The translations under genes and the position numbers were made by a program. The notes beneath the pieces were generated by a model. The model had not been told where the DNA came from. It worked only from the letters and a program-made list of their open reading frames with translations, and made no database searches. 64,000 nt of DNA from a bacterium (GTDB taxonomy: Bacteria > Armatimonadota > Fimbriimonadia > Fimbriimonadales > Fimbriimonadaceae): contig JAIXQR010000003.1 of NCBI GenBank assembly GCA_027485645.1, positions 124,001 to 188,000 of the forward strand. The letters run 5' to 3'. Shown one piece after another: positions 16,891 through 20,021 of this stretch (position 1 is the first letter of the stretch; each line of letters opens with the position of its first letter).

Positions 16891-18849
16891 ATGTCAGAAC
16901 CAGACTGTATGACCCTTGCTGAGGCACTGGCCGAGTTAGAAAAGACCGCGCCAGGAGTTCCGCTACTCGCTTTAGGACAGACCATCTTTTGGGATGAGCC
17001 GATGAAAGCGGGTGTTGCGCTGAGCCTTCGGCAGCAGGGATCTTCGCGGAAGTTTGTCGCCGGCGTTCACGACACCGACTACTTCGCGAAGTTGCCTTCT
17101 GGCCCCCGGCAGGCTGGCGCATTCAAGGTTCTGCCCCACAACGACACGACCACAAAGGGGCTTTGGAGCGCTGCCGCCGAGTTCTCCTCGCTCTTCGGCT
17201 CCGAAACGGTCATCAGTCGCGACATTCTGCAGAGCGCGGGGCTCCGCATTTCGATGATCGAACGCGAGCGCCCGGAGATGCTCGACCAAGCGACCGAGGC
17301 CTTCGGTTGGCGAGGCGTGGTCTCGCTCGATGAGTCCCCGCCCATCGCAGCCGACCTTCCGCTGCGAAAGCTTTTCCCCGCACTGGTCGAAGCCCTGGAT
17401 TGGGCCATCGATGCCAGCGAAAGCTCGCTCTCCGGCGACAGCAAGGACCAAGGCCAGAAGCAGGGCGAACACCTCCACCGGATGCTCTGCGACGTCGAAG
17501 ACGCTCGCAACGGCAAGTTTTCTGAGCTGTACCAAGGGCTCGTCCGGCCGATGTACGACTTCGTCGCCGGTGAGCCGGTGGATATCGATGTCACCGCCAC
17601 TACTCAGCTCCTGCGTTTCCATTCCGGTACCGCAAGCCTGCCTCGTTTCGAAATTCTGGATCGGTTTGTCAATCCGCAAACTCGCGCGATGGCTTGCGCC
17701 GCGTACGACGAGGCGCTTATTGGCGGTTCAGGGCAGTATGAGCTGAGCCGCTTCGGAACCGGGGCGATCCCGTTCGATCTCGTCATTCCTGGACTAGGGC
17801 GTGGCACCATTCGGATCGGAAACCGTGGCGTGGTCATCATGACCAAGGTTCCCCAGTTCCTCACCCTCAAGAAGCCGCTTTCGGGAGTGGAGGAGCTAGC
17901 GTCCCTTGTTGAAGCTAAGTTCGGCCCGAACTGCGCGGTGGTTGGAAAAGCCGTCGCCCTCATTGGCATGCTCGCGCGGGAGTTTGTCTTTGTCTTCCAC
18001 GAAGGTGCCAGTAGCTACGTTCGGCATAGCCGAAAGCTCCACGCCAAGTTGAACGAACTTGGCATTGGCGTTCCGGTGCATCCGATTCTGCGTCTGCGAT
18101 ACGAAGTCTGGGACAGCCTTCATGCCACGTGCGCCTGGTTCCAGCTTCCGGCGCCCATGCGCCGTCCATTCGGCGCCGACGAGATGTGTAGCCCAAGCTT
18201 TGCCCAGCGCTGGCGAGCGGTAGGCGAAGAGCAATCCGCCCTCCTGACGAAGCTCGGGCGGCTCAAGCGACCCGTCGATCTAATCGAGTTTTTGAACGCC
18301 CAATTCGGCGGCTCATGGAGCCGACTTGGTGAGGAGTACCGGGATCTGCGCCGCACCCTGGATCAGCTTCAGGCCGAGATTGCGCAGTTGCGGCGAGAGC
18401 GAGACGAACTGTATCAACAGCGGCGCGACTTGCGAGCGGATCGAGTTCAGGCCGAGATCGCACTGGGAGAACACTGGCGGGCCGAAATCTTTGAAAAATC
18501 CGCGACGCCGGCCGCTCACGCCACGAGGCATAAGCTGATGGCCGCCCGCGATTCTGTGCTTTTGGCGCTGCGAGAAAATCGCGCCGAGTTCATCCGGCTT
18601 CGGGAGAGACAGAACCAGTTGGTGCGTTCAGAAGAGGTGCTATTTATTCATCAGCGACGCCAGCAGATTGAGCTGGAAGCCGAACTCAAGCGACTGTGCA
18701 TCGTGCGTGAGGCCGTCATATGCTCGAAGGGCCTCAAGAGCGCAAATCACCGACCTTCGGCATGGTGGTTCCCGCTGGTATCGCCAAGCGGTAAATGGTT
18801 TGCCGAAGTGGTTCGAACCGCAAATGCGTACTTCGAACCACTCAGCTAG
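16891..18849 (+). CDS. Unrecognised large protein with C-terminal coiled coil
   Basis: 652 residues with no signal peptide or clear membrane segment, so it is likely cytoplasmic. I do not recognise a family. The first 440 residues look globular and well conserved in character: LLALGQTIFWDEPMKAG near 25-42, VAGVHDTDYFAKLP near 57-70, a FGSETVISRDILQSAG segment near 105, and a central mixed region with GLGRGTIRIGNRGVVIMTKVP near 305-325. Residues about 485-620 are dense in Glu, Arg, Gln and Leu heptads (LRRTLDQLQAEIAQLRRERD, later ELEAELKRLC) and should form a long coiled coil. The N-terminal ATG is preceded by an AT-richer stretch. It is a single gene, divergent from fumC and convergent with the DUF4332 gene. 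Confidence 0.8.
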   Translation: MSEPDCMTLAEALAELEKTAPGVPLLALGQTIFWDEPMKAGVALSLRQQGSSRKFVAGVHDTDYFAKLPSGPRQAGAFKVLPHNDTTTKGLWSAAAEFSSLFGSETVISRDILQSAGLRISMIERERPEMLDQATEAFGWRGVVSLDESPPIAADLPLRKLFPALVEALDWAIDASESSLSGDSKDQGQKQGEHLHRMLCDVEDARNGKFSELYQGLVRPMYDFVAGEPVDIDVTATTQLLRFHSGTASLPRFEILDRFVNPQTRAMACAAYDEALIGGSGQYELSRFGTGAIPFDLVIPGLGRGTIRIGNRGVVIMTKVPQFLTLKKPLSGVEELASLVEAKFGPNCAVVGKAVALIGMLAREFVFVFHEGASSYVRHSRKLHAKLNELGIGVPVHPILRLRYEVWDSLHATCAWFQLPAPMRRPFGADEMCSPSFAQRWRAVGEEQSALLTKLGRLKRPVDLIEFLNAQFGGSWSRLGEEYRDLRRTLDQLQAEIAQLRRERDELYQQRRDLRADRVQAEIALGEHWRAEIFEKSATPAAHATRHKLMAARDSVLLALRENRAEFIRLRERQNQLVRSEEVLFIHQRRQQIELEAELKRLCIVREAVICSKGLKSANHRPSAWWFPLVSPSGKWFAEVVRTANAYFEPLS

Positions 18850-18860
18850 TTCACGCGAAC

Positions 18861-19265
18861 TTAGTGGGTGACGACGCGCTCGATCGACTTCGCTTCGTCG
18901 ATCCACTTTTCAACTTCCGATTCCGAAGGAACGCGGTTCGCGATGTTCTTTTCGCCGTTGACCTCTTCGAGCTTGGCCGCGAGATTTGCGCCGTTTCGCT
19001 GGGCGAGCTCGGGCACCGAGTCCACACCTGCGGCTTCGAGCAACTCCGAATACTGTGGTCCGATTCCGCTGATGCGCATCAGGTCAGCGTGGTTAACAAA
19101 CCGCAGAATGTTCTTTTCTGGGATACCGGTCGCTTCGGCCAGTTCCTCTCGACCTGCCTTGCCGGCTGCCTTTTCCAGCAGACCTTCGACGGTGGTTACG
19201 CCCGCCGCTGCGAGCTTCTCTCCGTATGCCTCTCCAACACCTTCAATTTCCGTGATTTTTGCCAT
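18861..19265 (-). CDS. DUF4332-type protein with two helix-hairpin-helix motifs
   Basis: 134 residues. It contains two helix-hairpin-helix repeats: ITEIEGVGEAYGEKLAAAGV (about 4-23) and LMRISGIGPQYSELLEAAGV (about 62-81). Each is followed by a TTVEGLLEKA- or DSVPELAQRN-type helix, the arrangement of DUF4332 and of the C-terminal domains of some ribosomal and DNA-repair proteins. HhH units bind DNA or RNA backbones. The exact role is unknown. It is divergent from queE. A short inverted repeat (GGTACG-ACTT-CGTACC, 19277-19292) lies between the two starts and could be an operator. Confidence 0.85.
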   Translation of the reverse strand: MAKITEIEGVGEAYGEKLAAAGVTTVEGLLEKAAGKAGREELAEATGIPEKNILRFVNHADLMRISGIGPQYSELLEAAGVDSVPELAQRNGANLAAKLEEVNGEKNIANRVPSESEVEKWIDEAKSIERVVTH

Positions 19266-19337
19266 GTTATAACTCCGGTACGACTTCGTACCCGCTGTGC
19301 GAGTTTAGCGCAGTTCCTTTCCGGCACAATCAAGTTG

Positions 19338-20021
19338 GTGCTTCGAATTGCCGAAATTTTTACGAGCGTTCAGGGCGAGGGTTCGTGGATTGGCGTGCCC
19401 TCAACATTTGTCCGATTGAGCGGCTGCAACCTGCGATGCCGTTGGTGCGACACCCCATACGCTAGTTGGAAACCCGAAGGGCCGAATCGATCTGTAGAAG
19501 ATTTGCTTAGCGAACTTGTCGCTTCCCCGGTGGATCACGTCGTGATCACGGGTGGCGAGCCCATGATTTTTGATGACCTGGAGCCACTGGCGCAGGGTTT
19601 ACGAGATGCCGGCAAGACGATCACTATCGAAACCGCCGGGACCGTTTTTCGCACCCTGGCGTGCGATCTCATGAGTATCAGCCCAAAGCTGGCCAACTCC
19701 ACACCCGAGGGCGATTGGCGAGATCGGCATGAAAGTACGCGGCATCAACCCGCCGTACTGCGACAGCTCATCTCTCGCTACGAGTACCAGCTTAAGTTTG
19801 TTGTGGACCCCGAGGTGGGTGCTGACGTATTAGAGATTGAAGCTTTGCTCGCCGAAGCAGGTTCGGTGGACCCCCACCGAGTGCTATTGATGCCAGAAGG
19901 AATCTCAAGCGAAGACCTTTGGCGTCGGGCGAAGCTGCTCGTGCCGGTCTGCATCGAACGCAATTGGCGCTTGACTTCGAGAATGCACGTCGATTTGTTT
20001 GGGAATCGTCGAGGAACATGA
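19338..20021 (+). CDS. queE: 7-carboxy-7-deazaguanine synthase QueE (radical SAM)
   Basis: 227 residues from GTG 19338 (TTG at 19335 is an alternative); the much longer open frame upstream is antisense to the DUF4332 gene. QueE converts 6-carboxytetrahydropterin to 7-carboxy-7-deazaguanine in preQ0/queuosine synthesis. It has the SVQGEGSWIGVPSTFVRLSGC opening and the cluster motif C30-x3-C34-x2-C37 (CNLRCRWC), followed by DTPYASW, VVITGGEPM and TIETAGT. The queC gene for the next step is 4 kb downstream; queD and queF are not in the window. Its stop overlaps the next gene's ATG (ATGA). Confidence 0.95.
   Translation: MLRIAEIFTSVQGEGSWIGVPSTFVRLSGCNLRCRWCDTPYASWKPEGPNRSVEDLLSELVASPVDHVVITGGEPMIFDDLEPLAQGLRDAGKTITIETAGTVFRTLACDLMSISPKLANSTPEGDWRDRHESTRHQPAVLRQLISRYEYQLKFVVDPEVGADVLEIEALLAEAGSVDPHRVLLMPEGISSEDLWRRAKLLVPVCIERNWRLTSRMHVDLFGNRRGT

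Follow-up and report, generated by a model that had tools for sequence, protein, structure and literature searches.

The closest structural match of our protein, judged by predicted fold, is BshC. A 2015 review describes this enzyme as combining a Rossmann core, which carries the connecting-peptide motifs CP1/CP2, with a coiled coil on which its dimerisation depends; according to the review, its activity had not then been demonstrated in vitro and its mechanism was unknown (PMC4360819). A second point of reference is the diaminopimelate (DAP) epimerase DapF. In the H. influenzae enzyme, as described in PMC8225329, Asn64, Asn157 and Asn190 bind the distal carboxylate, and Arg209 and Glu208 also bind this end. 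That paper further describes PddB, a DapF-like Dab racemase that is encoded beside its amino-acid-activating synthetase and in which the three Asn and Arg209 are replaced (PMC8225329). Here we analyze a gene from a 64,000-nucleotide stretch of contig JAIXQR010000003.1 (the window), from a member of the Fimbriimonadales (Armatimonadota). Its product, which we call P0001, invites comparison with both systems.

P0001 is encoded by an uninterrupted ORF with an ATG start (Table 1). The protein is 94% identical to its nearest relative (41 of 652 residues changed), and the gene pair gives dN 0.045 and dS 1.17, i.e., a dN/dS of ~0.04, which implies strong purifying selection. Homologues (E ≤ 0.001) are present in 60 of 61 relatives. 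The ORF is thereby confirmed as a real gene, well beyond chance, and the original prediction, made from the sequence without database searches, was right to describe it as well formed and conserved in character. The start is plausible since homologues start MSEsDC; no obvious ribosome-binding site was seen upstream of it. The housekeeping context that was also described is borne out by CoaBC, an amino-acid permease and fumarase upstream, QueE and an FAD oxidoreductase downstream, and QueC in the same surroundings.

The longest QueE frame (18795-20021) begins within the P0001 gene. A DUF4332 gene (138 bits) is found at 18861-19265 on the strand opposite to this frame, and because it occupies the first part of the frame, the true QueE start is likely to be near 19330; the first ~180 residues of the longest frame are probably non-coding.

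Table 1. Features of the P0001 gene, in window coordinates.
Feature	Position	Strand	Basis
Gene for the 652-aa protein P0001	16891..18849	+	ORF, homologues, dN/dS
Predicted Rossmann (class I aaRS/BshC-like) core with insertions, residues 1-472	16891..18306	+	AlphaFold and structure matches
Motif ALGQTIFWDEPMK, residues 27-39, behind the first core strand	16969..17007	+	Alignment
Motif HDTDYFAKLP, residues 60-69, behind the second strand	17068..17097	+	Alignment
VGKAVALIGML, residues 351-361; G352, K353, A354 invariant (45 rows)	17941..17973	+	Alignment
EGASSY...PILR, residues 371-401	18001..18093	+	Alignment
Predicted C-terminal coiled coil, ~residues 470-620	18298..18750	+	Model helices and coiled-coil structure rows
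Conserved C-terminal tail RPSAWWFP..., residues 621-652	18751..18846	+	Alignment

At a threshold of E ≤ 0.001, P0001 relatives occur in 106 of 113 genomes of the class and in 199 of 291 genomes of the phylum Armatimonadota. Among good-quality genomes (≥ 90% complete, ≤ 5% contaminated) the corresponding numbers are 86 of 88 and 148 of 194. This phyletic distribution makes the gene a core gene of its lineage, and the named relatives are mostly records of Fimbriimonadales and other Armatimonadota. The 199 carriers include G266, which has two short fragments, and the f27/f28 genomes (G209, G210, G211), which have only a distant relative of ~720 aa. No match to P0001 was found among plasmids with tblastn, and no relative among viral contigs.

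In the distant f27/f28 relatives (L119 277-2433, L120 623-2791 and L121 644-2809), GQTVFWDEPMK is replaced by GDQNQAWDAVL and HEGASSY by RQGS(K/R)Y; L119 matched no NCBIfam model. A scan of genome contigs with single-sequence patterns returned 44 P0001 loci, three of them under uninformative or odd record names (L053, L055, L065). One of these, L055, is recorded as Methanoregulaceae archaeon SJ84, contains both a P0001 gene and the DapF2 neighbour described below, and is closest to a Fimbriimonadaceae record; it is probably a mislabelled or mixed bin. In Armatimonadetes bacterium Uphvl-Ar2 (L081 9998-11949) the gene is split over two frames of 411 and 281 aa, the result of a frameshift or sequencing error.

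Sequence searches do not name the family. P0001 has only sub-threshold Pfam matches, mostly to coiled-coil models, and the 45 family members scanned singly gave weak matches to mostly coiled-coil-type models among the families listed (25 of 147). No NCBIfam model is matched, searches of PDB sequences with the single sequence and with a profile returned chance or coiled-coil rows only, and PHROGs and PADLOC gave weak matches only, in the coiled-coil range. Nor did the literature search find any paper that connects BshC or DapF to this family or to Armatimonadota. With no clear match to a characterised family, the statement that the protein has no recognised family stands at the level of sequence; the predicted fold, described below, does offer a place for it.

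The family alignment of 45 rows has 52 invariant columns. Both motifs singled out by the original prediction are conserved: G29, Q30, T31, W34, D35, E36 and K39 are invariant in ALGQTIFWDEPMK and D61, D63 and Y64 in HDTDYFAKLP, as are R621, P622, W625, W626 and W636 in the tail. When the three f27/f28 rows are included, in an alignment of 32 rows, 18 invariant columns are left, and S374, Y376 and R401 are invariant even in these distant relatives.

The predicted structure is confident, with pLDDT 92.7 and pTM 0.86 for the whole protein (45-row alignment) and pLDDT 90.0 for residues 1-472 alone (38-row alignment). In the model a Rossmann core resembling that of class I aminoacyl-tRNA synthetases precedes a C-terminal coiled coil. 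The long helices (475-533, 540-578 and 581-620) agree with the ~135-residue coiled coil read from the sequence, which gives way to the conserved tail of ~30 residues (RPSAWW), and the globular part, first put at 440 residues, spans ~1-470. For the whole protein, Foldseek found nothing below 1e-3, with class I LysRS first at a weak E of 6.5e-3; for the core (1-472), class I LysRS (1irx) was the best match at E 8e-4. With VIA (966 chains), BshC (4wbd) came first for the whole protein, with Z 14.0 over 439 aligned residues at an rmsd of 13.4, a value implying that the domains are arranged differently in the P0001 model, and 1irx second (Z 13.6, 3.9 Å, 276 residues); the remaining rows were mostly coiled-coil. 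For the core, 4wbd was again first (Z 15.6, 4.2 Å, 299 residues) and 1irx second (Z 13.1, 3.6 Å, 245 residues), followed by GlnRS at Z 7.2 and, in the lower rows, mostly class I synthetases, with MshC (3c8z) at Z 5.5. Because Z drops from 13 to 7 below the top two, we assign the core, as modelled, very probably to a BshC-like/class I LysRS-like fold.

A pattern search for HIGH- or KMSKS-type motifs found none in 45 family members and none in six BshC, and the same patterns recovered a HIGH-type motif in only 1 of 7 LysRS-I-like controls and a KMSKS-type motif in 2 of 7. Aligned by hand, the GQT..WDEP part of ALGQTIFWDEPMK appears to lie opposite the BshC loop GQQ....GP, and the DTD of HDTDYF opposite EDHD in BshC and DDFD in class I LysRS. 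Judged from the model, P0001 seems to be a class I aminoacyl-tRNA-synthetase superfamily enzyme that, in the style of BshC, ends in a coiled coil. The description "coiled-coil protein" was correct about the coiled coil but undersells the protein, and a sequence that the first reading could not place now has a place at the level of predicted fold.

The gene neighbourhood points to a partner. When the neighbours in 77 P0001-family loci were clustered, 36 loci had a member of one single family as the next gene downstream on the same strand, and NCBIfam identifies it as DapF in 5 of 5 examined (142.6-234.8 bits). Two further neighbours of this kind had been masked by the ORF caller, bringing the number to 38 of the 77 loci; counting only loci with 700 bp or more of downstream sequence, it is 38 of 67. 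We call this recurrent second DapF DapF2. The adjacency is seen in families f1, f5, f10, f24 and f32, and among loci fetched for DapF2 three more, from two further f10 genomes and from f39, have the P0001 gene as the immediate upstream neighbour. The gaps are usually a few bases, or the genes overlap; longest frames were used, so overlaps are overstated. In the window's own genome DapF2 is unlinked to the P0001 gene, at C3:10320-11132, and it is also unlinked in the f2, f11, f12, f13 and f19 loci; where it is unlinked, no neighbouring gene is shared by more than two or three loci. Other neighbours of the P0001 gene are limited to particular families: f1 and its neighbours have a YbgC-type thioesterase together with MerR and ThyX-like genes, f13 has PBP2 and a SpoIIM-like gene, and f19 has an HldE-type adenylyltransferase (the names ThyX, MerR and SpoIIM are read from sequence). 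PBP2 and the HldE-type adenylyltransferase, each family-limited, hint at a role in the envelope.

The two genes also occur together where they are not adjacent. For 55 genomes chosen before any DapF was counted, two DapF were found in 25 of 27 carriers and in none of 28 non-carriers. When the count is extended to 276 genomes, at least two DapF matches (E ≤ 0.001) are found in 163 of the 188 carriers and in 7 of the 88 non-carriers; in a few genomes that have more than two, split genes may be the reason. Among the 194 good-quality genomes the numbers are 131 of 148 and 0 of 46; the seven non-carriers with two DapF (G058, G134, G169, G189, G228, G254 and G256) all fall outside this set. Fisher's test returns ~1e-38 for all genomes and ~1e-30 for good-quality ones, values that ignore phylogeny and are not to be read as probabilities. 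Of the 17 good-quality carriers without two DapF, five belong to f43, and two, G089 and G090, are complete genomes. The P0001 gene is missing from two small or reduced genomes of f1, G087 and G088, each of which has a single DapF, a state consistent with joint loss of the P0001 gene and DapF2. From the adjacency and co-occurrence we consider it probable that P0001 has a working link with DapF2.

The exception to the pairing in G089 and G090 extends to G091, from the same f1 genus: in each of these three complete or near-complete genomes the P0001 gene is present and only one DapF is seen.

The DapF2 of G000 scores 158.9 bits against the DapF model TIGR00652 (cut-off 114.65). In a quick tree of 72 DapF, all 49 DapF2 (32 adjacent copies and 17 second matches) group together with an SH-aLRT of 94, apart from 22 canonical copies that include all seven of the non-carrier copies used; one canonical copy, L226 (the top match in G041), branches beside the base of the DapF2 group, where the division between copies is unsure. 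Both catalytic Cys, the His and the Glu are retained in 49 of 49 DapF2. With correspondence to the H. influenzae numbering assigned by motif position and from PMC8225329, the Asn64 position is likewise retained in 49 of 49, and DapF2 also has the equivalents of Glu208 and Arg209. The Asn of GNPH (Asn157 position) is Ser or Thr in 49 of 49 DapF2 and Asn in 22 of 23 canonical copies, and the later Asn (Asn190 position) is Ser in 46, Asn in 2 and Thr in 1 of the 49 and Asn in all 23 canonical copies. Since DapF2 exceeds the NCBIfam cut-off, annotation pipelines would probably label it as another diaminopimelate epimerase, a name that may be incorrect in view of the residue changes. With the Asn64, Glu208 and Arg209 equivalents kept, a DAP-like substrate is still possible, and DapF2 might still act on DAP itself.

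The analysis shows a family with a defined spread and a predicted fold, whose gene co-occurs with DapF2 and often adjoins it, and it shows the residue changes in DapF2; for P0001 we infer a ligase chemistry, the use of ATP, dimerisation, a substrate and an acceptor. To the resulting proposal, that P0001 is a homodimeric ATP-dependent amino-acid ligase of the BshC/class I aaRS superfamily working with its own epimerase DapF2, we give an even chance. DapF2 would invert one centre of a DAP-like amino acid, giving a supply in D- or meso-configuration; the Rossmann core of P0001 would bind ATP and activate the amino acid, and P0001 would then join it to an amine or sugar acceptor. By analogy with BshC, the C-terminal coiled coil would dimerise the protein. 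The invariant residues of GQT-WDEPMK, DTDY, GKA, SxY, PxxR and RPxxWW would line the active site. More tentatively, we suggest that P0001 and DapF2 form the core of an undescribed pathway, conserved in the majority of Armatimonadota, whose product would be a D- or meso-amino-acid conjugate. This could be a new envelope modification, or else a new low-molecular-weight thiol or metabolite that a BshC-like ligase assembles from a DAP-like amino acid.

A shared fold with BshC is no proof of a shared function, and two alternatives take one of the two best fold matches at face value. P0001 might be a very divergent true BshC, adding cysteine to glucosaminyl-malate for bacillithiol: it has BshC as its best fold match and the same domain order, the 6 genomes (of 291) that have a PF10079 BshC are all non-carriers, and five carriers (G004, G005, G017, G115 and G274) have a BshA over the cut-off without a PF10079 BshC. 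However, this mutual exclusion involves two families only, f20 and f30, and the partner enzymes are mostly missing, with BshA over the cut-off in 9 of 291 genomes, five being carriers (194 of 199 without), and BshB1 in 3, all non-carriers. Nor is there a Pfam or profile match to BshC: PF10079 matches neither P0001 nor, among the families listed (25 of 147), any of the 45 members, and hhalign finds no link of the family to BshC (probability 0.1-0.2%). It finds none to class I LysRS (PF01921; 0.4%) either, and since the control comparison of BshC with LysRS-I also fails, this negative result on homology is weak evidence, with little power either way. We regard a divergent BshC as improbable; a plain bacillithiol synthase is unlikely given carriers without BshA over the cut-off (194 of 199) or BshB1 (199 of 199). 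Equally improbable is an aaRS paralogue that loads lysine, or another diamino acid related to it, onto a tRNA, a tRNA-like RNA or a translation factor. This would fit class I LysRS being the second VIA match and the best in Foldseek, and the hand-aligned position of HDTDYF at the LysRS-I DDxD; against it stand the missing HIGH and KMSKS (45 of 45 members), the failure to recognise any tRNA-binding domain in P0001, and a normal class II LysRS, which 27 of the 28 genomes tested, G000 among them, have over the cut-off (in the exception, G131, the match is below the cut-off and in frame-shifted pieces). On the same count we reject P0001 as a replacement for LysRS.

The other two alternatives concern whether P0001 is an enzyme at all and whether DapF2 belongs to its pathway. 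The long coiled coil and the missing canonical class I aaRS motifs could be those of a pseudoenzyme or scaffold that keeps a dead Rossmann core, but BshC likewise lacks HIGH and KMSKS, the invariant polar and charged residues are concentrated in the P0001 core, and a dN/dS of ~0.04 argues in the same direction; this reading is improbable as well. Somewhat less improbable, although still unlikely, is that P0001 is ligase-like and its link to DapF2 reflects shared descent, or an operon shared for regulation, with no common pathway. Carriers and non-carriers are indeed split largely by family, and in the f2, f11, f12, f13 and f19 loci the genes are unlinked; yet the immediate, often overlapping gene order recurs in at least six families, and within f1 both the P0001 gene and the second DapF are missing from G087 and G088.

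In G004, G005 and G017, which belong to the window's genus, the BshA over the cut-off adjoins a BshB-like gene and no PF10079 BshC is found; a P0001-family gene could have been recruited to the BshC role there. Separately, six genomes (G113, G115, G025, G134, G133 and G122; loci L182-L187) contain another class I LysRS-like protein of ~490 aa (VTIASGVTCAYLGDERNLREF...), with a GGDEF-type protein, so named from its sequence, just upstream in most of them. The L183 copy scores 132.5 against the lysS cut-off of 147.55, so at least one of the six is below the cut-off. Strong class I LysRS matches were found in two Armatimonadota genomes, at G119:C428:7735-8799 (457 bits) and G155:C123:20367-21413 (343 bits).

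Our preferred reading, a ligase working with DapF2, gives an anonymous gene, near-universal in a phylum that has received little study, a concrete hypothesis involving two enzymes. A distant structural cousin of BshC with a different partner could also help to separate the chemistry of this fold from its choice of substrate.

Compared with known systems, P0001 resembles BshC (PF10079; TIGR03998; 4wbd) in having a predicted Rossmann core followed by a C-terminal coiled coil, both proteins lacking HIGH and KMSKS. It differs in having no detectable sequence relationship to BshC, in being ~110 residues longer than 4wbd, and in accompanying DapF2, its carriers usually being without BshA and BshB1 partners over the cut-off. 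With MshC (3c8z), the mycothiol cysteine ligase, it would share the character of a class I aaRS-like amino-acid ligase of small-molecule metabolism, but the fold match is much weaker than that of BshC, and MshC is not known to have a coiled coil. With class I LysRS (PF01921; 1irx) it shares the predicted fold of the catalytic core, whereas HIGH and KMSKS are missing, PF01921 is not among the matches listed, and a class II LysRS is present. DapF2, for its part, resembles DapF (TIGR00652) in exceeding the cut-off and retaining the catalytic Cys pair, and departs from it by its separate clade and the replaced Asn157 and Asn190 equivalents. The closest parallel for the gene pair is PddB/PddA (PMC8225329): in both, a DapF-derived protein is encoded next to a known or putative amino-acid-activating enzyme. 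PddA, unlike P0001, is an NRPS-like membrane enzyme (a poly-Dab synthetase), and where PddB has lost the three distal Asn and Arg209, DapF2 has lost two Asn only.
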